Below are positions 11,816 through 60,100 of a stretch of DNA of 64,000 nucleotides, in pieces. The stretch spans positions 1 through 64,000 of IMG/VR virus record IMGVR_UViG_3300020474_000006. One strand, written 5' to 3'. Within the stretch, counting starts at the first letter, position 1. Each line of letters starts with the position of its first letter. The notes under the pieces are model-generated. The model was not told where the DNA came from and did not search any database. It saw only the letters and a program-made list of their open reading frames with translations. Made by a program: the position numbers and the translations under genes. Origin of the DNA: a virus.

Positions 11816-12762
11816 TTGAATTCACACTCCACCATAAGTTCAGTTAGACATGCCAGCATATTTATTTCTTGATCCGCAACGAACGCCATTTGATACTGAT
11901 ACTTAGCAAGAGTAAGCACAGCAGCAGGAATACTATTCGGAACCATGGAATCATAACAAGCATCGTAAATACGACGCAGTAGGACAGCAGTATCATTGTC
12001 CAGGTTATTGACAACCCATTTACGTACTTCGGGAAAATCTTTTTCCTTAAGTTTCTTAACCAAATCATTTACTTTTACATCACTAAAAGTTGCAAGAATA
12101 CCGGGATCGATAGTACCAGAAGAAGAATATCTCTGACACTCATTAAGAACACGTCTCCAATCTGGGAAGTGTTTGTTAATCAGTTCTACCAGGACCTTGT
12201 TATCATATTTAACACCTTCTGTATCCAAGATTTCTTGGATGCGTTTGAAGAATGAGGCTGCGAGTCCCTGTCGATCTTTTCCTTTAATGGAGAACTCGAC
12301 AACCGTTGTGCGGGAATGAAGTGGTTCGAGAATTTTGTTTTTGAAGTTGCAGGTAAAGATGAATCTGCAGTTGCCACTAAACTCCTCAATAAACGCCCGT
12401 AGGAGGAGTTGTACATCATTGGTTGTGTTATCTGCCTCATCAATGATGATGACTTTGTGTTTTGCAGTTGAAGAAAGCGAGACGGTCGAAGCGAAATTCT
12501 TCGCAGTATTTCTGACGGTATCGAGGAATCGTCCTTCATCGGATCCGTTGATGACATAAAAATCTACTCCTAGTTCATTGCAGAGTGCTTTTGCTACCGT
12601 AGTTTTTCCACACCCAGCAGGACCTGCAAGGAGCATATTTGGTATCTCACCCTTATCTAGGAAGTCTTGAAAAGTCTTCTTAATACTTGGTGGTAAAATA
12701 CATTCTTCAATAGTTTTGGGTCTGTATTTTTCAACCCAAAGAAATTCATCTCGCATAGTCAT
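11812..12762 (-). CDS. gp44: gp44 clamp-loader ATPase subunit
   Basis: A 316-residue AAA+ protein, RFC-like, forming the ATPase core of the loader for gp45. It shows WVEKYRPKT near the start, Walker A GPAGCGKT (47-54), DEAD-type Walker B IDEAD (107-111), the sensor region FIFTCNFKNKI and an SRC-like LHSRTTVV. Length equals T4 gp44 (319). It overlaps speD by 4 bases and the membrane microprotein gene by 4. Confidence 0.97.
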   Translation of the reverse strand: MTMRDEFLWVEKYRPKTIEECILPPSIKKTFQDFLDKGEIPNMLLAGPAGCGKTTVAKALCNELGVDFYVINGSDEGRFLDTVRNTAKNFASTVSLSSTAKHKVIIIDEADNTTNDVQLLLRAFIEEFSGNCRFIFTCNFKNKILEPLHSRTTVVEFSIKGKDRQGLAASFFKRIQEILDTEGVKYDNKVLVELINKHFPDWRRVLNECQRYSSSGTIDPGILATFSDVKVNDLVKKLKEKDFPEVRKWVVNNLDNDTAVLLRRIYDACYDSMVPNSIPAAVLTLAKYQYQMAFVADQEINMLACLTELMVECEFK

Positions 12763-13094
12763 TCCAAAGGACGAACAAATTCATTAGACACAATATCAGT
12801 TGCCTTCAATTGTTCTTTCATATATTCTACACCATTCTCAGGTATAGCGGTATCCCCACAAGTAAAGACATCACAAACTGCCATACCATTCTCTGGCCAA
12901 GTATGGATACTGAGATGACTCTCGGCAAGCATAGCAATTCCAGTCACACCTTGCGGTTCAAACTTATGTACTGTTAAATCAAGTAGTGTCGATTTACATT
13001 CTTTTGATGCTCTAAACAAAACCATTCGTATGAACTCTTTGTCATCAAGCAAATCAAAAGGACAACCCTTCAAAGTAAACAAAATATGTTTCAT
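12759..13094 (-). CDS. speD: S-adenosylmethionine decarboxylase proenzyme (SpeD)
   Basis: A 111-residue prokaryotic-type AdoMet decarboxylase, which makes decarboxylated AdoMet for spermidine synthesis. The self-cleavage site is AESHLSIHTWPENG, with S59 expected to become the pyruvoyl group after cleavage at E58-S59; the conserved cysteine is in DVFTCGD. It is a recognised cyanophage auxiliary gene. It lies between a conserved unknown and gp44 with 1- and 4-base overlaps, so it is made together with the replisome. Spermidine may aid packaging of phage DNA. Confidence 0.95.
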   Translation of the reverse strand: MKHILFTLKGCPFDLLDDKEFIRMVLFRASKECKSTLLDLTVHKFEPQGVTGIAMLAESHLSIHTWPENGMAVCDVFTCGDTAIPENGVEYMKEQLKATDIVSNEFVRPLE

Positions 13095-13621
13095 TATACC
13101 CAGTCAGGTTTACGATCAGGGATGCGAAGATAATTATCACATACCCATGGTTTAGATGAAATATACATCTTATATTTTTCAAAGATGGATATTGAAGTAT
13201 CTAACTTGAACTCATCAGGTCCTGCAAAAACAAAGGGTGTTGTATCCTTTCCACTGCGACCTTGTGGGTCTGCTGTAGGGAGTATCTCCTTTGCTGCTAA
13301 GAGAGTCTTCTGGCAGGTGTGAACCTTACCATAGCGAGCAGTGTACTCGTCACACATAGCAAGTCCATGAGCAAGAAGCCACTGCCAATTAGTTACAAAC
13401 TCATTCGCCCAGATAGTACAAGGATGATTACGAAAAGCACCCTTCTCAGTAGCATAGGGAGTACCGTCTGCTCTAGGAAGAGTGCCGAAGTTATGACCCC
13501 ATTTATCAGAGCATACAATAGCAAGCATCTGACATGTCTCTAGGGGCATCTTGACAATATGTTTGTCAGGGAGAACCCTGGCAGACTCCCAAGGACTGGG
13601 AGAGGTTACAAAGATATTCAT
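13094..13621 (-). CDS. conserved phage protein of unknown function
   Basis: A 175-residue soluble protein of a type widespread in tailed phages: DKHIVKMPLETCQMLA near the start, then NHPCTIWANEFVTNWQWL and HGLAMCDEYTARYGK. Conserved His, Cys, Trp and Tyr residues suggest a metal or nucleic-acid site. I recall a loose similarity to DNA glycosylase-like families but cannot support that from sequence alone. It overlaps speD by one base and the membrane protein gene by four. Confidence 0.75.
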   Translation of the reverse strand: MNIFVTSPSPWESARVLPDKHIVKMPLETCQMLAIVCSDKWGHNFGTLPRADGTPYATEKGAFRNHPCTIWANEFVTNWQWLLAHGLAMCDEYTARYGKVHTCQKTLLAAKEILPTADPQGRSGKDTTPFVFAGPDEFKLDTSISIFEKYKMYISSKPWVCDNYLRIPDRKPDWV

Positions 13622-15088: not shown

Positions 15089-16153
15089 TCAGGAGACCAC
15101 CCCTTCGTCAATGGGCATTACGAAGTCGGCATCAACTTTATCATACAGTTCCAGGAATGCTTGCTTGGTTTCATCATCAAAACGATTCACGCAGACCTGA
15201 ATTGCCTTTGCCTTATCATTAAAGATGCTATATGCACGAACGATATGAACCAGACGACGAGTGCTGATAATCTCTTCAATACCACCATCATAGAAGGTCT
15301 TACGGATGATATCTGCCCAATCAGAGAGACGCTTACAGAACTCAGCATCATTACAGACTTTACCAAGAATCTTCTGTTCTGTGGCAGCTGCGGGATACTC
15401 TTGCTCAAAGGTTACAGGGAATCGCTCAAGGAATGCTTCGTTGAGCACGTTAGTTCCAATGAATCGTCCGTCGTCACTTCCTTTACCTTTAGTATTGGCG
15501 GTTGCGAATACTTGGAAACCTTCTGTGGGCGCAACCCATTTGCCAATCTTCTTGAGGAAAACTCCTTTTCCTTCGAGAATAGATTGGAGACAAAGGATTT
15601 TGTTTGAGGCAAGGTCGATTTCGTCAAGGAGCAAGACTGCTCCACGTTGAAGTGCTTCAATGACTGGTCCATTGTGCCAGACGGTTTCTCCACCAATAAG
15701 ACGGAAACCGCCAATAAGATCATCTTCATCTGTTTCTACTGTAATGTTGACTCGAATAAGTTCTCTGTCCAGTTGAGCACATGCTTGCTCCACAGAGAAC
15801 GTCTTACCATTACCCGAAAGACCCGTAATGAACGTTGGATAGAACAGACCGGACTTAATAATTTTTTTAATATCAGCGAAGTTACCAAAGCTGACGAAGG
15901 TATCATCTTTTGCAGGAATAAGGTTCTGTTCAACAGCAGGCATAGCAGGTGGTGCCTGATAGTTTTGCTCTAGTTTTTCTTGTACGGTCAAGTTCCACTT
16001 TCCACGACTAGTCTTGTATTGAGTGAGTTTATTGGTGACAGTTTGATAGTTCGCACCATTCATAGCACACCAGGCACGAATATCAGCAGTAGCAACAGAC
16101 TCACCATACAACCCCTGAAGGGAAGTGCGAATGAACTCAGGTGAGAGGGACAT
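15089..16153 (-). CDS. cobS: MoxR/CobS-type AAA+ ATPase
   Basis: A 354-residue AAA+ protein with an N-terminal helical domain, Walker A GLSGNGKT (residues 111-118), Walker B LLLDEID (174-180), sensor 1 FATANTKGKG and an arginine finger region FLERFPV. Cyanophage relatives are annotated CobS, the ATPase of cobaltochelatase, which would boost B12 synthesis. The N-terminal domain and the neighbouring VWA protein also fit a MoxR-type remodelling ATPase, so the metabolic label is not certain. It starts 32 bases after a terminator that carries a possible sigma70-type promoter; there is no strong ribosome site. Confidence 0.9.
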   Translation of the reverse strand: MSLSPEFIRTSLQGLYGESVATADIRAWCAMNGANYQTVTNKLTQYKTSRGKWNLTVQEKLEQNYQAPPAMPAVEQNLIPAKDDTFVSFGNFADIKKIIKSGLFYPTFITGLSGNGKTFSVEQACAQLDRELIRVNITVETDEDDLIGGFRLIGGETVWHNGPVIEALQRGAVLLLDEIDLASNKILCLQSILEGKGVFLKKIGKWVAPTEGFQVFATANTKGKGSDDGRFIGTNVLNEAFLERFPVTFEQEYPAAATEQKILGKVCNDAEFCKRLSDWADIIRKTFYDGGIEEIISTRRLVHIVRAYSIFNDKAKAIQVCVNRFDDETKQAFLELYDKVDADFVMPIDEGVVS

Positions 16154-16175
16154 TTGGTTTGTTTGAACTGAAGTT

Positions 16176-16202
16176 ATTATAATCGAAAAAAACGGGTCTC
16201 AA
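16176..16202 (-). promoter_or_regulatory. possible sigma70-type promoter of cobS
   Basis: On the minus strand TTGAGA (16197-16202, one mismatch) is followed after 15 bases by TATAAT (16176-16181). The -35 falls in the loop and arm of the terminator hairpin and the U-run forms the spacer, as at 7.1 kb. The spacer is short. Confidence 0.55.
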
Positions 16203-16209
16203 ACCCGCC
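16185..16209 (-). terminator. terminator after the VWA protein / 47-residue gene
   Basis: A five-pair stem CGGGT/ACCCG with a five-base loop is followed on the minus strand by seven T, just after the stop of the 47-residue gene. Confidence 0.82.
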
Positions 16210-16214
16210 TTGTG

Positions 16215-16358
16215 TCACTTTTCATATTGTCTATATTTGAATTTCATTGCCTGCATCATCCATGCCTGAGCAAGACTCTTTGGACCTTCTTTAAGGACCT
16301 TTCTTACTTTAGGATCACTTTCACACTGAAGTGCAATTTCTTTCCAATTCATTTTCAT
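16215..16358 (-). CDS. 47-residue basic protein coupled to the VWA gene
   Basis: It reads MKMNWKEIAL and ends KYRQYEK. It is helical and basic, with a methionine-rich run (WMMQAMKFKY). The ATG overlaps the stop of the VWA protein as ATGA, and a terminator follows at once, so it is the last gene of that unit. Similar short proteins with the pattern DPKVRKVLKEGPKSLAQAW may be conserved, but no function is known to me. The close coupling suggests a partner or adaptor of the VWA protein. Confidence 0.7.
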   Translation of the reverse strand: MKMNWKEIALQCESDPKVRKVLKEGPKSLAQAWMMQAMKFKYRQYEK

Positions 16359-18490
16359 GCTACTAAGGAAATGAATTCTCCAAGAACTTTTTTATTTAGT
16401 TTCTTAGTCTTCAAAGATTTGATAAAAGCAGATTTAATCTTTGCTTTGGTAGCACCATCATCAACTTCAAAGTCAGCGTCTTGAGATAGTGAAGAAGCAG
16501 ACATCGCAAAGTATGCATGATAACCAGAAGTCTTAATGTTGCAACTCCGCTGCTTTTTCCATTCACTCTGAATCTTACGGAAGTCATCAGAATTTTGATC
16601 GTAATACAGTTTCATGAAATGATTTGCATCGCGACCCTCAAGAACACGAATACCTACAAAGTTGACAGAAGGGAAATTGTCACGCAGGTTTTCAATCATC
16701 AAATCAGTGAAACCATGCCAACCATACGGAACTCGATAAGTATTACCAGTCTTCCTATCCCTAAGGAAGGTAACACCACCAGATAACTGACGAGTTCCCA
16801 TATAAGGTTCTTTCTCCCATCGACGTTGAACTTCAACATGTCTAGAAAGATGATTTGCTTCACCATCAGTCAGGACAATACACTGAACCTTCTGTAGTTT
16901 GTTCTGCTTCTGGAACTGAGGAAGAATCTGGTGAAGACATACAAATGCTTCGTTCAGAGGAGTGCCAGACAGACCTAAACGAGAAGGAATAGAATAAGGA
17001 GAACCATAGTAATTGCTGAAGGATTTTGCAATACGCCAGATGTTAATCAACTGATGCTCTAGTTGCTTACCATTTGTCTTGCTAGTCAGAAGATTCATCA
17101 TAGAGAACTGTTCATGAACGGCAAGAAGATTTTCTTTCTTTTCATAAGAGGAAGTCCAATCTGCTGGTTTCACAATCTCGTTTGTTTCATGATTAATCTC
17201 AGGTCTCTTCCACTCATTTGTGAAAGCATAGACCTCAAAAGGAATAGAGACTTTCTTACAGAACCAGATCAAATTGTAGAGTTGCTTAATCGTATCAAGC
17301 ATCACACGACTCATAGAACCACTCCAATCAAGGACAAAGATTAGTCCGTGATTCTTACCATCAGGAATCACAGAGACTTTTTTAAATAGATCTTCGTTGT
17401 ACTTGTAGGTGTGCAGTTTAGAGGTATCAAGAACACCAGTGCGAGCAGTGGTAGCACGGGCATAGGAATCTGCTGCCTTGCGACACTCAAACTCTTTCAC
17501 CAGATAGTTGACTTCTTTCTGTGCATTACGTTTGAACTTGACAAACTTTTCATCAGATTGCTCAAAAATACTTAGCGAACAGTTATTTTTCTGATGATTA
17601 AACCAAGCATCAATCTCTTTGTGAATATCATCATTCTTAGCAATAATATACTTAAGATCAACCTGAGGGATTTCCACATACACGTTCTCACGACTATCAG
17701 TGTCTACAAGATCCTGCAGATTTGATTCTAGAGAATCAGCAGTCTGCACCTCTGGTTCATCGTTCAGAGGAGTATCAGCAGACTCACGTCGGGCTGCTTC
17801 CTCAATCATCTCCTCATGAGTCATGGTCTCACCAGCACCCTCTCCAGGAGAGTCCTGCTGTTCCTGCTGCTCACTAGCAGGTTGCTCAGATTCACCACCC
17901 ATCTCATTAGGTGACATCTCCATATCATCAACCTTTTCCTCTTTCTCTTTCTTGCAGAACAAGTAGAGCTCCTCTGCAACCTCCAATACTTCATCGAAAG
18001 TTTCTACTTCTGCAATCTTCTGGATCAGTTCTTTCTCTTCCGAGTCGAAAGTAATGCCTACAAAATTACCGACCTTAAAGTATAAATTTGCACGATCAGC
18101 AAGATTAAGATCAGCAACATTGCTGTCAGATATAGAGAAAAAGTCCTCTTCTTGTAATTCCTTGTAACCATGGTAGAAAGTTTTTGCTAGTCCAGCATAT
18201 TTGCGCTTCATCATCTTTTCAATTCTGGCATCCTCCACCACATTCACAAACTGAGGAGGAACTGCTACCTTCTCCAACCAGTTCTCATCGGGGGTGAAGA
18301 GTGCGTGACCAACTTCATGTCCAACCAGAAGGTCATATACGGTGTTGCTTGCCCTTTCCCACATGGGAAGGGTCAAGACGCGAGTGTGAACATTGAAGCA
18401 AGCAGTCTGTGTTTGTTTGTGCTCCACTACCAAGTCCTCAGTGGCAAGGAGTTTGGCGAGTTGAGATTTAATTTCTTGCTTGACTGCCAT
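16355..18490 (-). CDS. CobT-like VWA-domain protein with HExxH metalloprotease motif
   Basis: A 711-residue protein. An N-terminal zinc metallopeptidase-like part has HEVGH at residues 58-62 and a candidate third ligand in VEDARIE (85-91). A middle acidic, Gln/Glu-rich linker (about 180-265) includes SEQPASEQQEQQDS. The C-terminal VWA domain has a MIDAS motif DWSGSM (388-393) and LTDGEANH further on. CobT proteins of cobaltochelatase share the acidic linker plus VWA, but the HExxH points to a peptidase. With the adjacent MoxR ATPase it forms the known MoxR/VWA pairing. ATG at 18490 is preferred over a start 39 bases upstream. Confidence 0.88.
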   Translation of the reverse strand: MAVKQEIKSQLAKLLATEDLVVEHKQTQTACFNVHTRVLTLPMWERASNTVYDLLVGHEVGHALFTPDENWLEKVAVPPQFVNVVEDARIEKMMKRKYAGLAKTFYHGYKELQEEDFFSISDSNVADLNLADRANLYFKVGNFVGITFDSEEKELIQKIAEVETFDEVLEVAEELYLFCKKEKEEKVDDMEMSPNEMGGESEQPASEQQEQQDSPGEGAGETMTHEEMIEEAARRESADTPLNDEPEVQTADSLESNLQDLVDTDSRENVYVEIPQVDLKYIIAKNDDIHKEIDAWFNHQKNNCSLSIFEQSDEKFVKFKRNAQKEVNYLVKEFECRKAADSYARATTARTGVLDTSKLHTYKYNEDLFKKVSVIPDGKNHGLIFVLDWSGSMSRVMLDTIKQLYNLIWFCKKVSIPFEVYAFTNEWKRPEINHETNEIVKPADWTSSYEKKENLLAVHEQFSMMNLLTSKTNGKQLEHQLINIWRIAKSFSNYYGSPYSIPSRLGLSGTPLNEAFVCLHQILPQFQKQNKLQKVQCIVLTDGEANHLSRHVEVQRRWEKEPYMGTRQLSGGVTFLRDRKTGNTYRVPYGWHGFTDLMIENLRDNFPSVNFVGIRVLEGRDANHFMKLYYDQNSDDFRKIQSEWKKQRSCNIKTSGYHAYFAMSASSLSQDADFEVDDGATKAKIKSAFIKSLKTKKLNKKVLGEFISLVA

Positions 18491-18511: not shown

Positions 18512-18548
18512 ATAATACCAAACCCCCACCTTACGGCGGGGGTATTAG
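18512..18548. repeat. inverted repeat upstream of the VWA gene
   Basis: CCCCC and GGGGG arms with further pairing of TAATACC and GGTATTA form a long imperfect hairpin between the 61-residue gene and the VWA gene. There is no T-run in either direction, so it looks like an operator, an RNA-processing or a translation-control element rather than a terminator. Confidence 0.45.
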
Positions 18549-18880: not shown

Positions 18881-19504
18881 CTATACATCTTTATACAAAA
18901 CTTCAAAGTCTTTTCTATAGCAAGAACGAATGTTCACCTCTAATGCTGGACTACCCTTCAATTTATTTCCTTCATCTCCAGACTTAGGATAATCAATATC
19001 ATCCCGAAACTTCAGATCAACTCCGATAATCTCACTCAACCAAGACACGAACTCATTACCAATATTATCTTCAAACTTCCAGACGTGAGTTTTGTTAGTC
19101 AGAAAATCAATCTGTGGTCTGTACCAATTCCATGCTCCCTCAAAGGGAAGATTCTGAATCATTGATGCAAACATCATGGGGTCTTCCATGACTGATTGAA
19201 TATCATTTCCATATGTTCTCTTTAGATAAACCGAACCAGAAATAAATCTGGTGATAGGACTTCTAACAATAGAGAAATGTGGAATATTTTCTACATCCAA
19301 ATAATTATGATAGTGATCACGATGATAGTGTGCAATCTCCACACCATTGACTACAGACATAACTCCAAGACCAGTATCCATATGACTTTCTCCCCACTCA
19401 AATCCATTAGCAAGGAGGTTTGCTTCTACAAATCTTCCTGCTGTTCTAGGTATGTGAGCAAAGAATACTTTCTTACTCGTATCCTTATGGACAAAAGTAG
19501 GCAT
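18881..19504 (-). CDS. sulfotransferase-family protein
   Basis: A 207-residue protein with the two PAPS-binding landmarks of the sulfotransferase family: FFAHIPRTAGRFVE near residue 14 (5'-phosphosulfate loop) and SIVRSPITRFISG around residue 78 (3'-phosphate loop). These enzymes transfer sulfate from PAPS to sugars or proteins. The length is compatible with a minimal sulfotransferase domain. It overlaps the gp46 stop by one base, so it is expressed with recombination genes. The acceptor is unknown; host cell-surface glycans or phage virion proteins are candidates by inference. Confidence 0.78.
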   Translation of the reverse strand: MPTFVHKDTSKKVFFAHIPRTAGRFVEANLLANGFEWGESHMDTGLGVMSVVNGVEIAHYHRDHYHNYLDVENIPHFSIVRSPITRFISGSVYLKRTYGNDIQSVMEDPMMFASMIQNLPFEGAWNWYRPQIDFLTNKTHVWKFEDNIGNEFVSWLSEIIGVDLKFRDDIDYPKSGDEGNKLKGSPALEVNIRSCYRKDFEVLYKDV

Positions 19505-44999: not shown

Positions 45000-47900
45000 T
45001 TAGGCTAAAGCAATTACTCTCAAGTCCTTAATTCTAGGAACATAACATTGATTCCTAGATGTTAGATTTAGTTTTACTCTGTAAGTTTTAAACGAAGGTA
45101 GGTTATCGATAGAGAATGTATATTCTCTATAATCAACAAGAGCGGAATCATGAGCCAGAGTATTGGATTTAACTATGAATACATCTGGTTGACCGTTATT
45201 ATTTTGAGGGGCAATTACCTGACCTCTAGTATTGAGGTTAGAATAACCTGGGAATGGTGAGAAGATTGGTTCAAATCCAGGTTCGTTTGCTACAGAATAG
45301 AATGCTCTAATATCTGCATCAAGATTGATATGAGCAGAAATTATAACTTTAATAGAAGATGCTGAATTTTCTAATACAATTTCCTTAGAAATATATTGAC
45401 ATGCTGTTGGATCTTCTTCAATACTATCTACTCTAGAATCAGTTGCATAATTTGTAACAACATCATTTACTCTGTTTGATGTAAGTACAGCACTTACTCT
45501 TTGAGTATCGATAACAGGGGTAAGTCTCGTATCAACAGTGTTCAAGAACATCCTCATGTTCATTGATTTAGACCCAGGAACTGTAGTTAGGTTTGCATCT
45601 TCATTAATTTTAGATGCAATCATTCTTGGAGAATCAAAATAATTCTTTTGATTGATGATGATATCATCAAATCCTGCATTTAAGAAAGGAACTTCTGTTC
45701 CACTGAAACTCTTGGACGTAGTAGTCCTTAGTTCAGCACCAATGGTTGTTCCAGGAACTGTCATATTATGTACATTAGGAGTAATCAATTCAAATGGCAT
45801 ATTCTGAGTTGCTCTAACCTTTGTACCACCTGTAGATTTAGAACGATTGAGGGATAACTGAGGAAATCCAACATCAGTATTTCTAGCAGTTCCCGTGTTT
45901 CCACTTACATCGAGTTTAATTTTATAAGAATCGAATGTAAACGGATTAGATTCTGTCACATCTGCTAGAGAATGCGTTTTATTAATACGATCAAGACTTA
46001 TACCAGACAATTCATATTTAAATACTGGAGTTCCTGCTGGATATGTCTTTGGATTACGACCTCTTACAATAGTTCCCCCAATAGTATTTCCAGTTACATT
46101 TGTATATGTAATTACTTCATCACCAATAAGAAGTAAACCTGAGTTAGTTGTGCCAACTCCAACATTTTCAAATGTAGCAAATGTTGCACCAAGTCCAACC
46201 GTAAGACCTGATGTAGAATCTGCTGGATACGCTGCAGAGAGCGTTGTTGGTTTGATATCTGGTTTCACTCCAGAAAGTCTAACACTATTTTCAGTAAAAT
46301 ACATTCCATGATTTTGATGACTGATGTTCATGTGCAGACCATCGTTGATAGTAACAATAGATGCAATTTGAACATCTCCTCCAGGAGCACCTGGAAGATC
46401 GTTATTTAATGTCTTGGCAACTCCAACGCTGTCGAAGTAGTTCATTGACTTACCACCACCAACAACAAAGTTGCCTTGAACGTTATCGAGGATAATTTCG
46501 TTTGTAACTCCAATTCCAGTTACGGTAAGTTTGGCATCTCTGCCGATGGTAGCAATACCGATAGTAGAAATTCCAAGAACATCTCCAACTACATAACCAG
46601 AACCTCCCGCAGTAATGGTTGCTCCAGAGGCAACGATACCACCATTAAGGATACTAATTTCTGCAGTTGCACCTCTACCACTACCTGTCAGAGTGACGAG
46701 GTTAACGCCAGCGAACGTATAAGAACCACTGGCAGGCGTATAACCTATGCCAGGGTTAGATACGCTAAGAGTCCCTGTTACGGAACCAGCAGTACCTACC
46801 AGGTCTCCTGTAGCGTTGGTTCCATCTTGGAAGAAGGTATTTCCAATTTGATATCCAGAATCTCCAACAGTTGTTCCCAGACCAACTCTAATTTTTTTAG
46901 ATGCGATGGAAATAGGATCAGGAAGTAACTTAGCAATCTGAGCGTTTCCTTGCGTGAGTTCTGGACTGTAGAATTCAACACTTCCACTTTCAACAAAATC
47001 TGCCCTATACAAAGTAAATTTAAGATCTTCCCACTGACTTGGTTCCCAAGTGGTATTATTTTGAGATTTGAATAGAGAACCAAGATATGGTTGGTTAGAG
47101 ATAAACGTATCAGTTAATAAGTCATTTTCGCCAATTCTAGAAATATATACAGTATACTTAGTAGAGTTGGATGCTAAACATATTGCATATTCTGTACCAC
47201 CTTCAACATAAACAGGTGATTTAAATTGAACGTTTGTAGCAACAGATCCGTCAGAAGAAGTTTGAATATCAGATGGGTCTAAAACAATCTCAGAACCAGG
47301 AAGAATTTTAGTGGTTGGGAGACCATTGTCCATAGATCTCAGTTGGAAGACAACGGGAACATCCAAATCATCAACTGTTCTGAAGAAAACATCACAACTG
47401 GTTAAGAAACAACCAGTTTCGTCTTCAACTAAGAAAGACTGTGCAAGTGGATCATACCAAGTAATAATTGTTTGAGTTCTTTGTTGTGTACTGACTACAT
47501 TAGAGTTAACTACTTGAGTACCAAGAGTTTGTTCCACGTTTCTATCTTGGAATTCTCTTCTTTGTTCTATCCTTGCATTTCTAACAGAAAGGATATTTTC
47601 TTGAACCGTCTCTAAAGTGCCAGTAGAAGTAAATGCTTCTTCTGCAATAGTAGATGCTAAATCCTGATTATTATCAATATCATTTACTAGAGTAAATGTT
47701 TTTGTTCCTGTTTCAAATTTAGGGAAGTTGGGATTATTTGGGTTAGGAATAAAGAGACTACCAATAATAGTAGATGACAAATCAGCAATGAGTCTTACAT
47801 CATCTAAGGTAGCTTGTGCTCCACTTGTTTCTCCAACAAACGTCATTCCTGTCTGAACATACCCAAAATAACTACCTTGGGGTTGTTCAGAAAGAGAAAG

Positions 47901-50900
47901 AGTATCAACGTTTAAAATTGTCGATGTTGAAGAATATGATCCTGAAAGTGGGCGATTGGTATAAGGATTTTCGCGGAAAGTTTTTGTTGGGCTATCATAA
48001 GCACCCTCTCTATGATTTGATTGAGCGACTCTAAAGGTAATTCTAGGAGAAGTCTCATTAGACTCCTCAGAAAGTCCTGTCCTTACAATTGTACCAACTA
48101 CAGTTTCTCCAACTTGGAATGTTCCGCTAGTCATGGAAATTTCAAGAAGTTTAGGTACACAATATCGGGTAACATCTATCCCATCAAAAAATGCATACAA
48201 TCTTGTAAGGGGCTTCATTTTTCTAGAAACAAATTCAATGTTTCTAGATCTCATGTTTGCAATCAAATCTCTACTAATAGTTCTGTCTCCTAGAGAAGTG
48301 GTATCAAATTGTTCAGTAACAATAGTTCTAGAACCATCTCTAGATTGAACACCACTTTGAACTCTACTTACAATAGTTTCTTCAACGACTTGATCAGTAA
48401 CTTGTCTGGTTTGGACGCTTCTTCGTGATCTATTACCAGGTCCTTGACGATGAATAGTAGCAGGACCATTATTAATAACTCTTCTCCTAGTGGTAGTTTC
48501 ATCGGTAATGCCACCCCAGTTAGTTTCCCAAGAATCCCAAAGAATTGGACCAAACCCAGTTTGAGGGTCAACTTCTCCATTTGCTACAAGTGCATCAAAA
48601 GTTTCATTATAGTCACCTTCTTGCAGGATAGTTTTTGCTTCTAAACGAGTTGTATCCACCCAACTATCAGTTGATGGAGTTAACTCCATAGTTCCATTCC
48701 AAAAACTAATAAGGAATGGAGTAACGCTTTCAGTTCTAGTTGCAAATGCTTGAGTAATATATTCAACCTCAGCATAATCAAGAGTTAAGATATCATCTCC
48801 TTTTCTTACATTATTACCTTCAATAGCAGCAACACTGGAATCTGCATTAGGGTCTCTGTCAACAACAGGACCAAGAATCATGTCAACCGAATTGGTATAA
48901 TGTTTTGGTCTAAGTTCGTTATACTTTATATCAATAGAATTCTTAATATCAAAACTATCATCTTGAGTTTGGAATCCAGAAAAATTATCTACGAAGAATC
49001 CTGATTTAAATCTGTTTAAACCTTCGGAATCAGAGACAAATAAGTTTGCAGTTTCTTTCTCTAACAAAGAAAGAGTAGTATAATATTCAAGACTTCTAAT
49101 TCTATCTTCAAGTTTTTTGATATCCTGCATACGATATCTTTTATGCTGATTAAATGCTAGTTTTGCGTCACTAACATTAAAGAGATATGGGGGCAATTCT
49201 ACAGTACAAATTTCAATTGCATCATCAACAGGATTTGGATTTACGGGATCATCAGAAGGAGTTCCATAAACAACCTGAAATCTTCCATCTTTAGAGAGGA
49301 AAACTCTATCAATTCTTCCTTGATAGTAATCAACATCTGCAATAATAGATTCGTCAGATGCTAAAATATTTTGAATCGATTGTCCCGCACCATTAAAAAC
49401 TCTCCCTGCAAATTCCAATGGAGATCTAACATTCTCAGCAACACTATACTCAGAAACTCTTGGTCTTAAATCAATAATATCACTGGTCCTATATCCATTA
49501 ACTGTCTTGATTTCCTCAGAATAATCAAAGTTTTTATACGAATCTATAGTTATAATATCACCATTATCAGTCGTATCAAAATAAGCAGAGGTAAAGTAAA
49601 TCTTTAACTGGTTTACTGGTGCGCTGCTCTTTACTTTTCTTTTTATAGATCCATAAGAATAAAGAGTATCTTCTTGACCAGTTCTGAATGTGTAGTTTGA
49701 AGAAATATTGAAACTAGGTGTAGACAAAGTAGAAACTCTAGCACTAATATCAGACTCGTCAAATTCAACAGTTTCACCCTCAATGAGAACTGATTCATTT
49801 TTATAGATAAGAGAAATTGTAGATGCATCTACAATTTCAGCAACTATGGCTACAGCACCACTAGTTTGACCAACTATTCTTTCTCCGATTAACATATCAG
49901 AGGTAGTTGTAGAAGGACTAATGATGTTGAGAAGGGATACTTTAGGAGCAGAAGCAACACTTGTATCCGCAGATTCAAAAATTCCTTGAATTGAGATAAT
50001 GTCTGGAGAATTTAAAGAAATTAATTGGTCTTCAACTCTAGTCCCATATGGATAGTTTCCATAAGTAAGACCATTATTCAGCGTAGTGGTTCCAATTCCA
50101 GATCCTTGAAGTCTAGATTTGTCAACAATGATAGATTTTACTTTATTTTTAATTTTTACTTTAGACTTTGGATTTGTTTTTCTTAGGGTGGCAATCAGAG
50201 TTGCTCCACTATTATCGGTTCCAAGATTTCTAATCTGTAAAGATTTTCCATCTGACGATAGTTCAAATCTATCTGAACTAAGTTGTTCAGTTTTTCCATC
50301 AGATCTGATAAGAACATATCTTTCATCATCAAATGGAAGGAAAGTTTCATTAGGTCCTGCCGTTGCCTGAACAGAGAGTTGACCAGAAGAAATATCAACA
50401 CTGATAGTTTTTCTAATCGTAATAATGGATTCAGCAATATCTACTGCTGCTACGTTCGGTTTTGGTAAAAGAGTATATAAAGTATTATCAGAAGATTTGG
50501 AAAGTTCGGTATTGAGAACTTGCAAATCTGTAACATTTAAGGTCGCTGCAGGTAAGAATCCACTTGCAATTCCAGAAACAGTCGCAACACCCTCAATACT
50601 AACAGTTGCAGTGCCAACACCAGTAACTCTGGCAATAATTGGGTCCTCAGTTAGTCCTGGCGTAGTATCAGTATACCTAATTAAATCATTTTCCCTGATA
50701 ACTGTTCCAGGAAACAGTTGATTTGAAGCAGTAATCGTGCTAACTCCACCAGACTTGGGACTAATTGTTGCAATACCAACTGTAAAATTATTAGATTGAA
50801 GTATATTCGCACTAAAAGTATTAACTCCAGTGATTCCATTAGCAAGATCTAAAGTATTTGAAGAACCATATACGGATTTTACGTTAGAAATTTTATTTTC

Positions 50901-52544
50901 AGTAACTGCAATAGCAATTCTTCCATCTTCAAGTCCATTAAAAGAGAGTCTCTCATTAGAAACAAAAGTTCCCTTACTATCATATACAGTAACAGCGGTT
51001 CCTGCACTTACAGGATGTCTTAAGAAACCAGTAGCACCGCTAGAATTTCCTTTTACGAAGGTAGGAACAGTTAGAGTATGTGCCTGATTTAAAGCAATTT
51101 CAGTTGTTGTCTGCACATCATACAGGGACAAATCCCACTGGTTTGTATTTGCGTTAGATGTGCTATAAGTTCCAGATTCAAGTCTAAAGTCATATACCCT
51201 TGCAAGACCAATTTCTTTTCCTGGAGCACTTTCAGAATTAACTCCAACTCTTTGATCTCGTAAACTTATAACGAAAGTATTACCAACTCCAATTGTAGGT
51301 GCTCTATAAACACTATTAATTTTGAAAGTTGCACCTGTGTTATAAATGAAATTTTGATTTTCTAAAGTTTTTGTAGTTCTCGGTTTATCTACATCAATAT
51401 ATGTTGTATTGAGAGTCTCAATTTCATATCCCTTTACATATGCCTTTCCAGGGGAGAGTTTGTACAGTGCAAGATTATCGGTGGGAGTTGCTCCTCCAGA
51501 AGTAAATTGTCCTGCGTTAAATACTCCATTATTTCCAGTTTGATCGTTTAGTGACTCTGCAACAGAAACATCAAATGGTCTTACATAATAATGACCAGAC
51601 TCATCAAAAGTTCTTCTTGCCAGAATATCGGTCCAGTCTTTATTGAGGTATCCACCTCCCTGATTTGTCTGTAAAGAAGCAGTTTGAATAACCCCATTAA
51701 TTACAGTTGCTAGTAAAATGAAATTATCATCACTAAAATCATCTAAAGGTTTTTTAAATAAACTTACACTAACTCTAAGTCTGTCTGCACCAGGAGCAGC
51801 ATAGTTATTAAATCCTTGAGAATTATCATTAAGAGATTCGTCTAAATCTGCAGTAACGATTTCTTCATCAACGAAAAAACCAATCCTATAACTTGGAGTA
51901 TTGCTATATTGATCAAGAACTAAAGTTTCTCTATTAACATTAACAAAACTACCCCTAATAAAGTAGACACCATTCTCTACAGAAAAAGCAGACCCAGTTG
52001 CAGCAGCATTAGATGCTATAGTACTTGCAAAAGCGGACCCAACGGGAATAGTTGTATTACCAAGTAGTCCAGAAATAATAACTTCATTACAAGTTAATGT
52101 TTCCGCATCAAAAAATGTTTGAGTCTGGTTATTTGTTGTACTGGAACCCAAATAATTAACATAAAGGGTTATATTTCCATTTTCAGAATCTTCAGGTAGG
52201 ATAATACTATCAACAACAGCAGTTACACCAGATCTAACTCCAGTGATTTTTGTTCCAATTAACTGATCTACATACGCAGATACAGGAACCCCTTGAAAAT
52301 TATTATCTAATTGAATTGCATAATATAATCTAGTATATGCAGTATTTCCAGGAATTACCTTAGCACCTTCTTTAAAAAAGTGCAGACCAAATTTTTCAAT
52401 TTGATTTTGCAGTATAGACTGGAGACTTGTTAGCTCTCTTGCCTGAATAGGATATCCGGGTTTGAATAATACCTTATGGTAATCGTTAGCGGGATCAAAA
52501 TCGTCAAAATATGGCGCTACGTTGAGATTCGTTTGTTGAGGCAT
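45000..52544 (-). CDS. giant baseplate/tail structural protein (DUF4815-like)
   Basis: A 2514-residue protein. The N-terminus FKPGYPIQARELTSLQSILQNQIEK-type pattern (about residues 27-52) matches the DUF4815 family of large phage tail proteins. The body is a mosaic of beta domains with repeats such as SGATGFLRHP, SGAVAIVAEI and GAQATLDDV, and a GGGY/GSGY section (about ITAGGSGYVVGD). It ends YVPRIKDLRVIALA. It follows gp8 by 6 bases and takes the place of T4 genes 9 to 12, whose products are not seen here, so it may combine wedge, pin and fibre-socket roles. That is inferred from order. Confidence 0.85.
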   Translation of the reverse strand: MPQQTNLNVAPYFDDFDPANDYHKVLFKPGYPIQARELTSLQSILQNQIEKFGLHFFKEGAKVIPGNTAYTRLYYAIQLDNNFQGVPVSAYVDQLIGTKITGVRSGVTAVVDSIILPEDSENGNITLYVNYLGSSTTNNQTQTFFDAETLTCNEVIISGLLGNTTIPVGSAFASTIASNAAATGSAFSVENGVYFIRGSFVNVNRETLVLDQYSNTPSYRIGFFVDEEIVTADLDESLNDNSQGFNNYAAPGADRLRVSVSLFKKPLDDFSDDNFILLATVINGVIQTASLQTNQGGGYLNKDWTDILARRTFDESGHYYVRPFDVSVAESLNDQTGNNGVFNAGQFTSGGATPTDNLALYKLSPGKAYVKGYEIETLNTTYIDVDKPRTTKTLENQNFIYNTGATFKINSVYRAPTIGVGNTFVISLRDQRVGVNSESAPGKEIGLARVYDFRLESGTYSTSNANTNQWDLSLYDVQTTTEIALNQAHTLTVPTFVKGNSSGATGFLRHPVSAGTAVTVYDSKGTFVSNERLSFNGLEDGRIAIAVTENKISNVKSVYGSSNTLDLANGITGVNTFSANILQSNNFTVGIATISPKSGGVSTITASNQLFPGTVIRENDLIRYTDTTPGLTEDPIIARVTGVGTATVSIEGVATVSGIASGFLPAATLNVTDLQVLNTELSKSSDNTLYTLLPKPNVAAVDIAESIITIRKTISVDISSGQLSVQATAGPNETFLPFDDERYVLIRSDGKTEQLSSDRFELSSDGKSLQIRNLGTDNSGATLIATLRKTNPKSKVKIKNKVKSIIVDKSRLQGSGIGTTTLNNGLTYGNYPYGTRVEDQLISLNSPDIISIQGIFESADTSVASAPKVSLLNIISPSTTTSDMLIGERIVGQTSGAVAIVAEIVDASTISLIYKNESVLIEGETVEFDESDISARVSTLSTPSFNISSNYTFRTGQEDTLYSYGSIKRKVKSSAPVNQLKIYFTSAYFDTTDNGDIITIDSYKNFDYSEEIKTVNGYRTSDIIDLRPRVSEYSVAENVRSPLEFAGRVFNGAGQSIQNILASDESIIADVDYYQGRIDRVFLSKDGRFQVVYGTPSDDPVNPNPVDDAIEICTVELPPYLFNVSDAKLAFNQHKRYRMQDIKKLEDRIRSLEYYTTLSLLEKETANLFVSDSEGLNRFKSGFFVDNFSGFQTQDDSFDIKNSIDIKYNELRPKHYTNSVDMILGPVVDRDPNADSSVAAIEGNNVRKGDDILTLDYAEVEYITQAFATRTESVTPFLISFWNGTMELTPSTDSWVDTTRLEAKTILQEGDYNETFDALVANGEVDPQTGFGPILWDSWETNWGGITDETTTRRRVINNGPATIHRQGPGNRSRRSVQTRQVTDQVVEETIVSRVQSGVQSRDGSRTIVTEQFDTTSLGDRTISRDLIANMRSRNIEFVSRKMKPLTRLYAFFDGIDVTRYCVPKLLEISMTSGTFQVGETVVGTIVRTGLSEESNETSPRITFRVAQSNHREGAYDSPTKTFRENPYTNRPLSGSYSSTSTILNVDTLSLSEQPQGSYFGYVQTGMTFVGETSGAQATLDDVRLIADLSSTIIGSLFIPNPNNPNFPKFETGTKTFTLVNDIDNNQDLASTIAEEAFTSTGTLETVQENILSVRNARIEQRREFQDRNVEQTLGTQVVNSNVVSTQQRTQTIITWYDPLAQSFLVEDETGCFLTSCDVFFRTVDDLDVPVVFQLRSMDNGLPTTKILPGSEIVLDPSDIQTSSDGSVATNVQFKSPVYVEGGTEYAICLASNSTKYTVYISRIGENDLLTDTFISNQPYLGSLFKSQNNTTWEPSQWEDLKFTLYRADFVESGSVEFYSPELTQGNAQIAKLLPDPISIASKKIRVGLGTTVGDSGYQIGNTFFQDGTNATGDLVGTAGSVTGTLSVSNPGIGYTPASGSYTFAGVNLVTLTGSGRGATAEISILNGGIVASGATITAGGSGYVVGDVLGISTIGIATIGRDAKLTVTGIGVTNEIILDNVQGNFVVGGGKSMNYFDSVGVAKTLNNDLPGAPGGDVQIASIVTINDGLHMNISHQNHGMYFTENSVRLSGVKPDIKPTTLSAAYPADSTSGLTVGLGATFATFENVGVGTTNSGLLLIGDEVITYTNVTGNTIGGTIVRGRNPKTYPAGTPVFKYELSGISLDRINKTHSLADVTESNPFTFDSYKIKLDVSGNTGTARNTDVGFPQLSLNRSKSTGGTKVRATQNMPFELITPNVHNMTVPGTTIGAELRTTTSKSFSGTEVPFLNAGFDDIIINQKNYFDSPRMIASKINEDANLTTVPGSKSMNMRMFLNTVDTRLTPVIDTQRVSAVLTSNRVNDVVTNYATDSRVDSIEEDPTACQYISKEIVLENSASSIKVIISAHINLDADIRAFYSVANEPGFEPIFSPFPGYSNLNTRGQVIAPQNNNGQPDVFIVKSNTLAHDSALVDYREYTFSIDNLPSFKTYRVKLNLTSRNQCYVPRIKDLRVIALA

Positions 52545-54122: not shown

Positions 54123-54130
54123 TATTTATT
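54123..54130 (-). promoter_or_regulatory. late promoter of gp8
   Basis: AATAAATA on the minus strand, 19 bases before the gp8 ATG and overlapping the stop of the giant gene. Confidence 0.58.
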
Positions 54131-57100
54131 AGGAGTTTGCGGTATAATTTTTAGACTTCAAGAAGTTTGTTCTAACAACTCTAGTCGAAGTAGTTATACC
54201 AGAAGTGTATGCGGTGTAAGAACTTGTGAGATCTCTAGAGGAAACATCAATTCTTCCCCAACTAAAGTTACCGAAACCAGTATCGGAAGTTGTGATTCCA
54301 GTGCTGTATCCCGAAGGAACAGCGGTAGCATCAACAAACAATCGTTTGACTGTAGTTGATATTCCAACAACATCTCTAGTCAGTGTCTCTACATTAGAGA
54401 CCTCGTATATTCCATCAAATGTGTTTCCCATACCAACGTTGGACTTCTTAATCATGAAGTAATCATTTGCTTGAATAGATGTTATTGTAACGGCAGTTCC
54501 AGCAACAACTGTATTTCTAAGGAAGGAATCATATGGAATATGAATATCAAAGATAAATTTAGGACCAGCAGTGGTTCCAAATCCAACAACAATACCATTA
54601 TCACCAGAATAAGTATTTACACTACATGCCTCTTCAGTATGTCCTGGAGGAGAGATAAGAACAGTAGGCACGCTTGTATATGTATAACCAACTCCGGGTG
54701 AGGTAATTGCAACACCAGTCACAGTTCCACCAGCACTTATAGTCACTGTACCAAATGCTCTAGACGCAGAGGTGTAACCGAAACTTACTGTTGCAGTGCT
54801 ATATCCAACACCACCGTCAGATATTACAACGGAAGAAATAGTTCCAAACCCAGAAACAACAGCTGTTGCAGATGCACCAACTTTTGGTTCTTGAGCAATA
54901 AATTTAATTTTATCTTGGAACTGTAAGTCTGCTGCCTCGTTTTGTGGATTAAATAGTGGTCTTAAACTATCGACATATACTGCAGTTGAACCTACACCAA
55001 CATTTTTAATAATGTATGCTGTTGGATTAATAATGGGTTCATAGAGTTCCCTATCTTTTCCTGTTGGAATACCATCAATAATCTTATCTTCAGTTTGTCT
55101 GCACCAGGTAACTGGTCTTTCTAAAGTTACATCATTAGTATTTCCTGGTCCAAAGTAAGGATTTGTTGCAACATTGCCGGTTGAAAGAACGTTAAGAACA
55201 CTTCTTTCATCTTCATCAAGACTTTGTGCTTGAGAACCAGCCATATGTTTGAGTTGTAACGTATCACCTTTCTTAACCGTTTCGATTACATCTCTAAAAA
55301 TAACGTCACTATCACCATTTCCTTTATAGAAAATAATGGTAACAATATCACCAATCTTCAGTGCCTCAGTAAAGGTGAGTGTGCTTCCCCCGGTAAATTC
55401 ATATCCTACACCTGGTTCCTGTAAAATGTCATTTACAAAAATAATCAATACATCTTGAACATCGATTTTTGAACCTGGAGAAGAAACAATTGAAGTAATT
55501 GCTCCGTTCAATTTAAGAGGGAAATCTTTTCTTGCTCCATCAATAAGGTCTTCAATATTATCAAGAACCTGTAAAGTTCCTACAGACCAACCTGCAAACT
55601 TATCGTCTGCAATTTCATCGACAGTAACTTGGAACTCATTCCCAGAATAAGATGATGTAGTTGGTATTCCTGTTGTTCCTCCGATTGCAACTGTTAATAT
55701 AGCGCCATCTCTATAACCATATCCAGTATTATCAATTTGAAAATCAATAACGCTGGAACCGTTACCAACTACAACATCGATAGTTGCTTCAGTTCCAACT
55801 CCAGCGGCGGAGGAAGAACTGTAGAATAAGCGCATATTTGAATATGCTGTGGGGTCATCAATAACAATATCAATCGGTTTTTTGACAGTTCCACATCTTG
55901 CATAGAAGTGCGTGCGAGTAGAAACACCCGTGTTTATTTCAAAATTAGTGCTATCAATAATTCTGAGAACACTTGATCCTTGTGATGCAGGATCAAATCC
56001 ACTAGCGGAGTTGTTACTAACTCTTGGTGCAATAAGAGCAGGTTGTGCCACACCACCACTTTGATAGAATGTTGGAACAGTAGAAACTCCAACATTTATA
56101 ACAAATTCGGTAGTACTGGGAACAGAAGTTACTTTAGAACCACAATATGCAGGATCAGTTGTTCTTGGATAAACATGAGTAGAAGATCCACCGTCTAAAC
56201 CACAAGTAAATGCCAATCCAGTAAGAATAACGTCACTTTTTTGTCCTGTAGTGGAAAGATTGTGAGCAGATGATGTAGTCACTGTCATGATACCACTTAT
56301 GTTGTCATAAATGGCATTACTTACATTAACAGGACCAGAACCACTATAATCGCATGTAAATGCAATTCCAGAAACAATAATCTCTTCGCCAAAAGATAAT
56401 CCATGTGCAGTGGAAGTTGTAACAGTTGTCAATCCAGTTATGGAATTATATCCAACGTTTGATATGGAACGAGGTGCATAGAAAACTCTATCAGTTGTGA
56501 TAGCTACTGAAGTTATGTTACCTGCAGAAATAGAAGCGATTCCAACTGGAATAACAGTAGATCCAGAGACATCTGGCAATCTTACTCCGACAGAAACATT
56601 TGTTTGTATTCCAGACCTATAACCAGAACCACTATTACCAATCGATACTGAAGTGATCGTACCAGCAGAAGATACAACTGCCGTGCCACCAGCAGCAACT
56701 AAAGGTTGATAACCAAATCCTTCAGTCGAACCAACAGAAACTATAATTCCACCTTTAGGGAAACTAGAAATTCCTACATCAGGTCCAAGAGGAGTTTGTG
56801 GAGAAGTGCCATTGAATGTTACAGAAGTAATTCCAGAATTCTCAGACAGAACATAATCTTTATCCGAAGAAGGAACTTGGAAAATATCATTAATTAGAAT
56901 AATTGCATTTTCATTAGTAATTCCCGTTATATTACTACTAGATTGTTCTAAAGTAAATTGATTAGTAGTCCCATTAAACTGGTCATTAATATTATCGAAG
57001 ATATAATTTTTATTGTAAGAATTATTAGATCCTCCAGTTATTCCCGACCTAATAAAACTTCTTCCTTGGAAAGTAGAACTTGTCGTAATTCCAACGTAGT

Positions 57101-60100
57101 CTCTTTGATCTGGTGGATTAGTTGTGGAACCAATAGGAGTATTTCCAAAAGGTGCTTCTACAAAATTAAGAACATTATCCACAACATTATAGTTTCCTGT
57201 AATTTTAGTAACTAAAGCATGAGTTCCAGCAGCGGCAACTTTAGTTCCCAACCATCCTCTGCGGACTTTTATGAAATTAGTGCTGCCGATACCAACACCT
57301 TCAATCTTCATAATCTCACTACCAACTCTGATTAGATCAGATCCAAAGAATGATGTTATTCCACTAAATTTAACTATGTTTTCAAAGATTGATGTATTAG
57401 TAGACAATCCTGTAGTTACTGAAGTAGCAACAATAGGAGATTGTATGAGGTTATCAATAGCAACCATAATCTTAGCATTCTGATTAGTTGCCACAAATCT
57501 ATGAGAAGTTCCAATACCAACACTTTCAAGTTCTACTATTTCAGGAACCTCTTTAAGTGCGTTTTCAGCACTAGCCGCAATCTTAATATTGTTATCGTCA
57601 ACCTTGACTGCAAAGATATTTTCTCCAGGTAAGAATGTTGTATTTGAAGCACCAACGAAAGATGTTGTAGCGATTCCAACAGCAGAGGAAGCAGTTCCAA
57701 CGTGAACATATTCAATCTTCTCACCACTTACAAAGAAGTGATTTGGAATAGTAATGGTATTACTTGTTACATTAACAATTGAACTATCATTACCAGTGAA
57801 GTATCTTTCAAAAATCTCATTATTTTCATGGGTTAGTCCAAATGCTCTCTTGATATCTGATTCGGTTCCTTCATAAGTTCCAAATTCTCCCCCAATAGAA
57901 GCGTTACTGAAAGTAATCGCAACTCCTAGGTTAGTGTCTTGATCAAGAGTAACTGCATTTTTAAATACAGTTACTTTCGTAGCAATACTTGCATTTGGAG
58001 TAAACAGAAGAGAGACCGTACCAGTGCTATCAATACTAGTTCCAAATGTTCCTAATCCAACACCAGTTTCAACATTACCATACTCAGTGAAATAGGTATC
58101 ATATGAATTTGTCGCATCAAGATAGTCATCAACAACAACTAATTCCGAAATCTGATATCTACCATTAGTTGTATCAGCAACCTGTGCTATGAAGTATGCA
58201 GAATCGTAATCATTACCGTATTGGGAGACAGTTGTAACTCCAGGAGTTCCCGAGGCAGAAATACTGGTTGTCCTTCCATCAATTTCAGCAAATTGCAATT
58301 TAGTTGTTCCAATTCCAGAAGTATTTTGAGACAATGCAACTTGAACGGTGTTCACTAAACATGTAGTAGCGATACCTACGCCAGGGTGGAAATCAATTTC
58401 CAAATTGCTTCCTGATATTGCCGCAGAGTAAGTTCCGAGTCCTACACCACCAGAGAAAGAGTCAAATCCCCCAGTAGTCAGTTGACCAAATTCAAGTAAC
58501 TCTACTGTAGTTCCATCATGAGTGACATTAAGTTCAACCATCTCAAATTTATCATTCTGTGTAGAATCTGGATTGATAGATACCAAAACTTTAGCAGAAT
58601 TATATGTACTCGCTATCGATACAATCGTAGAACTAGAACCAGAAGTGACTTCAGTGTTAGAAGTGTCTACTAAAACACCGCTGCCAAAATAAGTAACCCC
58701 AGTTCCTACAGTTGCTATACCACTAATATTGTAAGATAATGTAGTTACATTGTAGTCATTAATGGTAGATTTAGTCGGATAGAATAGCAATTGACCATCT
58801 GTTCCACTAACAGAGAAGTCAAAAGAACCTTGATCATATTGAGTTTCAATTCTTCCATATTGATTCATATATGCTTTTACGCCATCATGAACCAAATCCA
58901 CAATAAGAAGTTGTCTTTCCTGAGTATATCTCTTATCTCTAACATAAGTAACATATTTTAATGCTCTTGCATCAGAGAGACTGAATGTGTTAATAACACT
59001 AAACGGAGTTAATCTTGGTTCACTGTTAAATTCTCCACTAATATCATCAATAGAAAGAACCCTGTTTCCGACAGATTCAAAATAGTCCGTTAGGATTCTA
59101 TTGGTAAATATCATTTCGTCGGATATTGTTCCCGAGTTAATATTATTTTCTGTCACCAAATCAAAGTCAGCAACACAATTTAAATTACCAAATCCATTCA
59201 AATCATTTACTATATCTACAGATCCAAGTTCAGTAGACAGTCCAACTGACATTTGATTAGAATTTGTAGATTCTAACTGATAATCGGAGAATTTTTTATA
59301 TCCTAAAGTGTGGTTGGTTGATGAAACAACATCATTCCAAGTATCATATGGGACTTCGGATTTAAGAGAATATGAGAATTTTTGATAATAAAAATTGTCT
59401 TGAATTCTTTGAAGATTGTAGTTAAGTTCTCCAGAATCACTTTGCCATCCCCTAACAACTTTTGATGTTGCATCATATTCGAGATAAGTTTCAAATGAAG
59501 TTACAGAAGAAGCAATACTGACAACTCTAGATGATTTGCCAGTTATCTTTTCTCCAACTACGAAGTTGTCCTTGGAGGATACTCTAACGATAGATGTGAT
59601 AGGATTCCAATCTTCAACTACTCCAGTTGCAGATTCTGAGGTGACAGTTTCTCCTATAACGTAATTATTAAGAACTAAATCACTACTAAAGGTGGGGAAA
59701 TGTTTTTGTGCCGTTATTCTTGCAGTGGAATTTACAGCATCAAATTGACCTGGGAATTGATCTTCTTCAAAAAGATTGGACATATTGAATCTAACCGACC
59801 CAATTCCACCAAGATTAGGACTGACCTCAGTTAGTTCAAATAACTTATAAGCATATCCAGATGAATTGTAGTTTTGTCCTGTCGATCCAACTCCAACACT
59901 TACACTTTCAACTAGAACTTTATCGCCAACTGCAAATGGGAAACTATTTACCGTGCTAAATCCTACAGATAAAGTTACCAGTGCATCCTTAGTTGTAGGG
60001 AAATATTCAATTGTACTAATTCCTACTCCAGAATCAGTAAGTGTTGGAATAATTGTGGGACTTAAATTAGATAACCCATTTGTATTCTTTAAGATTTTGA

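Follow-up and report, generated by a model that had tools for sequence, protein, structure and literature searches.

We propose, with moderate confidence, that the gene annotated as cobS and the adjoining VWA gene of a T4-like cyanophage encode an ATP-driven remodelling machine of the MoxR/VWA kind, which would act in the early or middle phase on a client protein that is probably cut or has its metal site handled. The core genes of marine T4-like cyanophages include cobS, which is routinely classed among auxiliary genes for vitamin B12, a label that is probably wrong for this pair. The DNA analysed here, hereafter the window, is a stretch of 64,000 nt from a virus fragment of 75 kb. Its gene content marks the source as a T4-like cyanophage near Synechococcus phage S-SM2; the two share 77.7% DNA identity across 92% of the region.

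Locus and gene order

On the minus strand, the gene order is gp47, a 90-aa gene, gp46, a sulfotransferase-like gene, a 61-aa gene, VWA, a small gene, CobS, a DUF3310 protein, and gp45 (Table 1). All that the initial annotation had described at the centre of this order is present: an AAA+ ATPase with intact Walker A and B motifs, a VWA neighbour with HEVGH, VEDARIE, and DWSGSM, and a 47-residue gene coupled by ATGA. The sulfotransferase-like gene (PHROG 3347; 18881-19504, minus strand) lies between gp46 and the VWA gene. The replication cluster also holds genes for AdoMet decarboxylase (speD) and a pyrimidine-dimer glycosylase (12759-13621, minus strand), and the structural region contains two giant ORFs of 2514 and at least 3289 aa (45000-52544 and 54129-63998, minus strand).

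Table 1. Features of the VWA-CobS locus, with positions in the window
Feature	Position	Strand	Basis or remark
VWA protein, 711 aa from ATG (PHROG 459)	16355..18490	-	ORF also open from GTG at 18529
Putative zinc site: HEVGH (aa 58-62) and NVVEDARIE (aa 83-91)	18218..18319	-	Invariant in alignments A1 and A2; 157/157
MIDAS motif DWSGSM (aa 388-393)	17312..17329	-	DxSGSM in 157/157
47-aa small protein (PHROG 869)	16215..16358	-	Start overlaps VWA stop (ATGA); overlap in 71/71 loci with the gene
Terminator-like hairpin between small gene and CobS	16189..16211	-	Hairpin in 60/158 VWA-CobS gaps vs 5/168 control windows; loci related and controls coding, contrast indicative only
CobS upstream region, TATAAT at -28	16154..16181	-	75/76 near relatives vs 3.8 expected from shuffles
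MoxR-type AAA+ ATPase, 354 aa, annotated CobS (PHROG 249)	15089..16153	-	Motifs, Pfam, PHROG
Terminator-like hairpin upstream of VWA gene	18522..18543	-	Hairpin scan

The ATPase has the motifs GLSGNGKT (Walker A), LLLDEID (Walker B), ERF, and STRR, and it matches Pfam AAA_5 (E 9.6e-17), as a MoxR ATPase with intact motifs; its score against CbbQ_C (19.9) is just below the cut-off of 20.6. The VWA protein belongs to PHROG 459, 'peptidase' (E 6e-275), and consists of an N-terminal gluzincin-like domain, an acidic linker, a finger-like segment, a VWA/MIDAS domain, and a conserved C-terminus. Across the family, a TG-containing segment occupies the finger position and C-terminal residues are conserved. 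The VWA protein of the window had no Pfam match, including to the CobT families PF06213/PF11775, and no CobT match was found in 23 family members either. A sequence search of the PDB with the VWA profile returned low-complexity matches, with CobT appearing only at E 4.5 and within the acidic linker.

The putative zinc site and a proposed mechanism

The putative zinc ligands recognized in the initial annotation hold throughout the family: HExxH(17-31)NxxEDxR, that is, HExxH plus the downstream E of gluzincins, is found in 157 of 157 full-length relatives, as is DxSGSM, and both motifs are kept down to 20-30% identity. With no more than 40 invariant columns among 711 in a diverse alignment, the presence of these motifs in every relative is not due to chance. 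For the N-terminal 190 residues, modelled with pLDDT 86 and pTM 0.82, the 13 best PDB matches are all HExxH metallopeptidases/gluzincins or the ArdC fold, each of them weak (best E 0.05, none <0.001); among them are ArdC, a putative Zn-dependent peptidase, selecase, abylysin, jannalysin, and PprI (E at least 0.05). For the whole VWA model, the best PDB fold match is the NorD VWA of NorQD (E 1.9e-4). DUF2201 (PF13203) also combines an HExxH domain with a VWA-like MIDAS; however, no profile similarity to the phage VWA protein was detected, and kinship with it was rejected. A reading as a defence system was likewise dropped, as PADLOC gave no useful match. In Anaerobiospirillum (L208, 7971-12409), an HEAGH/EDARIE domain and a MIDAS-bearing protein are two adjacent ORFs, which indicates that the zinc-site and MIDAS domains can be split.

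NorQ/NorD and CbbQ/CbbO resemble the phage pair in having a MoxR AAA+ protein with a VWA partner, a finger-like segment before the VWA domain, and a conserved C-terminus, in addition to the best fold match. In NorQD, the finger lies in the pore, the C-terminus lies on the ATPase, and the linker twists (PMC13036017). By analogy, the phage ATPase ring would hold one VWA protein by the finger-like segment and the C-terminus, and ATP hydrolysis would shift the VWA domain relative to the N-terminal domain. The client would probably be bound by the MIDAS site, and, because the N-terminal domain has a complete HExxH...E site, the pulled-open client would then probably be cut, or its metal site handled. 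For NorD, by contrast, text searches of PMC9976466 and PMC13036017, both on NorQD, gave no mention of such a peptidase domain. The target in the early or middle phase could come from the phage or from the host, and a protein linked to phage DNA replication or recombination is the likeliest.

A narrower reading, which we hold only tentatively, sees in the pair a zinc protease of the CobT/NorD class that is fed by ATP: the ring would present clients to the HExxH domain in the replication phase, and CobT would have descended from proteases of this kind after loss of the catalytic site. We consider it rather unlikely that the pair is instead a pure chaperone for metal insertion or enzyme repair, similar to NorQD or CbbQO, with structural zinc and no cutting. 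NorD as best fold match is consistent with such a chaperone, as are the metal enzyme NrdB, whose gene is in all 12 complete phages with the pair, and the phage CobT-like relative ZY21, which has kept the pair and lost the zinc site; but the general-base glutamate E59 is invariant, and structural zinc needs no such residue.

Gene linkage and control signals

The genes for the ATPase and the VWA protein occur together. The VWA protein was found in 463 and CobS (at least 60% identity) in 457 of 50,697 phage records, and the tallies of cyanophages by name are identical for the two (365/61/24). Among fetched viral contigs and isolate loci whose sequence extends 1.5 kb or more downstream from the VWA gene (n=135), CobS adjoins that gene in every one, at a median gap of 205 nt, which bears out the co-occurrence on which the initial annotation depended. 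The ATPase thus has a neighbouring VWA protein with a MIDAS, as in the MoxR/VWA class (135/135 loci, 157/157 relatives, and the fold match). In a set of relatives (L050, L051, L053-L055, L057-L059, and L061-L063), CobS is 90-92% identical to that of the window and the VWA protein merely 68-70%, a sequence pattern that suggests recombination between the two genes; with CobS seemingly exchanged against a given VWA gene, their co-adaptation would be loose.

The replication genes gp46 and gp45 are neighbours of the pair in 100 of 109 and 62 of 65 cases, respectively. In T4-like phages, these neighbours are inherited as a block and so say little about the client. In other elements, the neighbours include DNA pol III, DNA pol I/helicase, uvsX/primase, and ssb. 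The pair is beside uvsX and primase, away from gp46/gp45, in Stenotrophomonas phage DLP_6, and comes after recombinase and primase genes in S-CREM2; the two genes thus change genome position together. The common auxiliary genes of S-CREM2 were given as phoH, mazG, and hsp20 only, hence without cobS (PMC10665884), yet this phage encodes a 60% identical ATPase; its pair (L084, 5998-9249) is named 'ribosome assembly protein' and 'MoxR-like ATPase'. No relatives turned up when viral contigs were scanned with the DLP_6 and Ochrobactrum proteins. Two large contigs (L193 and L187, 188-189 kb), listed as Nonlabens and Prochlorococcus, look phage-like and code for the VWA protein.

The small protein, for which a role as adaptor had been suggested, has a different distribution. 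It accompanies the pair in 71 of 172 sampled VWA loci, all of them near kin, and in 1 of 12 isolate loci, and in other cyanophages its family is found behind gp3 and before an SSB gene, with a similar 4-base overlap. A conserved adaptor or obligate partner is ruled out by these counts and by the gp3 placement. Being absent from most loci and standing elsewhere behind the unrelated gp3, the gene is one that settles behind others and no fixed part of the machine, and we infer that its product is an optional passenger or modulator.

Promoter motifs were scanned in the 70 nt upstream of ORFs. The late-type motif NTAAATA precedes 9 of 16 structural-region ORFs vs 2 of 27 others (P = 0.0007), and it was not found within that distance of VWA or CobS; CobS has a conserved TATAAT in its place. 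A terminator-like hairpin separates the VWA/small-gene unit from CobS, and the overall terminator count in the scanned region was not above shuffles. The promoter motifs place the pair with early/middle rather than late genes and so make a role in virion assembly less likely. Such a role, in folding or processing structural proteins, was proposed for group 2.2 jumbo phages, where MoxR adjoins a vWA protein with an N-terminal metallopeptidase; cyanophages and Ochrobactrum phage OC form group 2.1 (PMC7824862). As likened from the published description, the two-gene architecture is the same, including the metallopeptidase domain, but with both phage genes in the replication cluster and the late motif before neither, we regard virion assembly as improbable here. 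The group 2.2 pairs and NorQ/NorD are the closest precedents, so the phage pair belongs to an already known kind.

Relation to CobT and vitamin B12

Members of PF06213 are of two kinds, with and without HExxH, as sorted with L222, L223, L224, L226, L228, and L233 left aside. No HExxH precedes the conserved EQxRxE in the high-scoring L220, L221, and L225, or in L227, L229, and L231, and the solved CobT 9uka is also without the zinc site. HExxH and EDxRxE are kept in L217/L234, L235, and L236. Of these bacterial proteins, L234 has a CobS-like ATPase and DNA polymerase III alpha as neighbours, and L236 is near ssb, RNR, and primase. A DUF3150 gene is directly upstream of the zinc-site gene in both L235 (7607-10601) and L236 (7436-10780). 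The phage VWA profile matches zinc-site CobT-like proteins of mobile elements at E 1e-20 (N-domain alone, 3.7e-15), vs a match to site-less CobT in the finger/MIDAS segment only (E 9e-4, probability 23%). The zinc-site proteins share HExxH...EDxRxE and VWA with the phage protein, although they are distant in sequence and belong to different genetic elements. The simplest reading of these unrooted comparisons is that the zinc site may have been lost in the CobT line.

The aerobic cobaltochelatase CobS/CobT (PF06213, TIGR01650) is remotely homologous to the phage pair in both proteins and has the same layout of N-domain, acidic linker, and VWA; in contrast to the phage protein, the readable high-scoring CobT proteins have no HExxH, and the phage proteins fall under the curated cut-offs. 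CobS matches the solved CobS (E 1e-20), but its 63.6 bits against PD_CobS/TIGR01650 are far under the equivalog cut-off of 558.55. The absence of CobN, which had been noted for the window, extends to all 12 complete phages with the pair (0/12, positive controls detected), so that neither CobN nor the CobS score places the pair in CobST. The class I RNR small subunit (NrdB) is encoded by all 12, and one class II RNR model gave two sub-threshold matches only. Class I ribonucleotide reductase is B12-independent and, together with the lack of CobN, this makes a B12 role doubtful. Host CobN could potentially be used, since two genes of the CobN family, one of which may be a magnesium chelatase subunit, occur in a Prochlorococcus genome that has no CobT; however, 6 of 7 genomes with the highest-scoring CobT also show no CobN. 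Moreover, SAR11, the host of several phages carrying the pair, is without MetH (PMC12478193). Despite the CobS matches and the alignment of the finger/MIDAS segment with CobT, it is thus quite unlikely that viral CobST and host CobN raise cobalamin production in infection, as proposed in PMC8651126. The suggestion in the initial annotation of protein processing rather than, or besides, B12 synthesis is supported by the conserved zinc site, the site-less readable high-scoring CobT and solved CobT, and the CobN result, while protein cutting itself is a step that we infer.

The pair is found in marine cyanophages and in some related viruses, for which a common annotation probably needs correction. 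If CobS is one half of a remodelling or protease machine, its ecological reading in terms of B12 fails. The neighbour called "peptidase" or "CobT" would then gain a testable function, and an origin of CobT would also be suggested.
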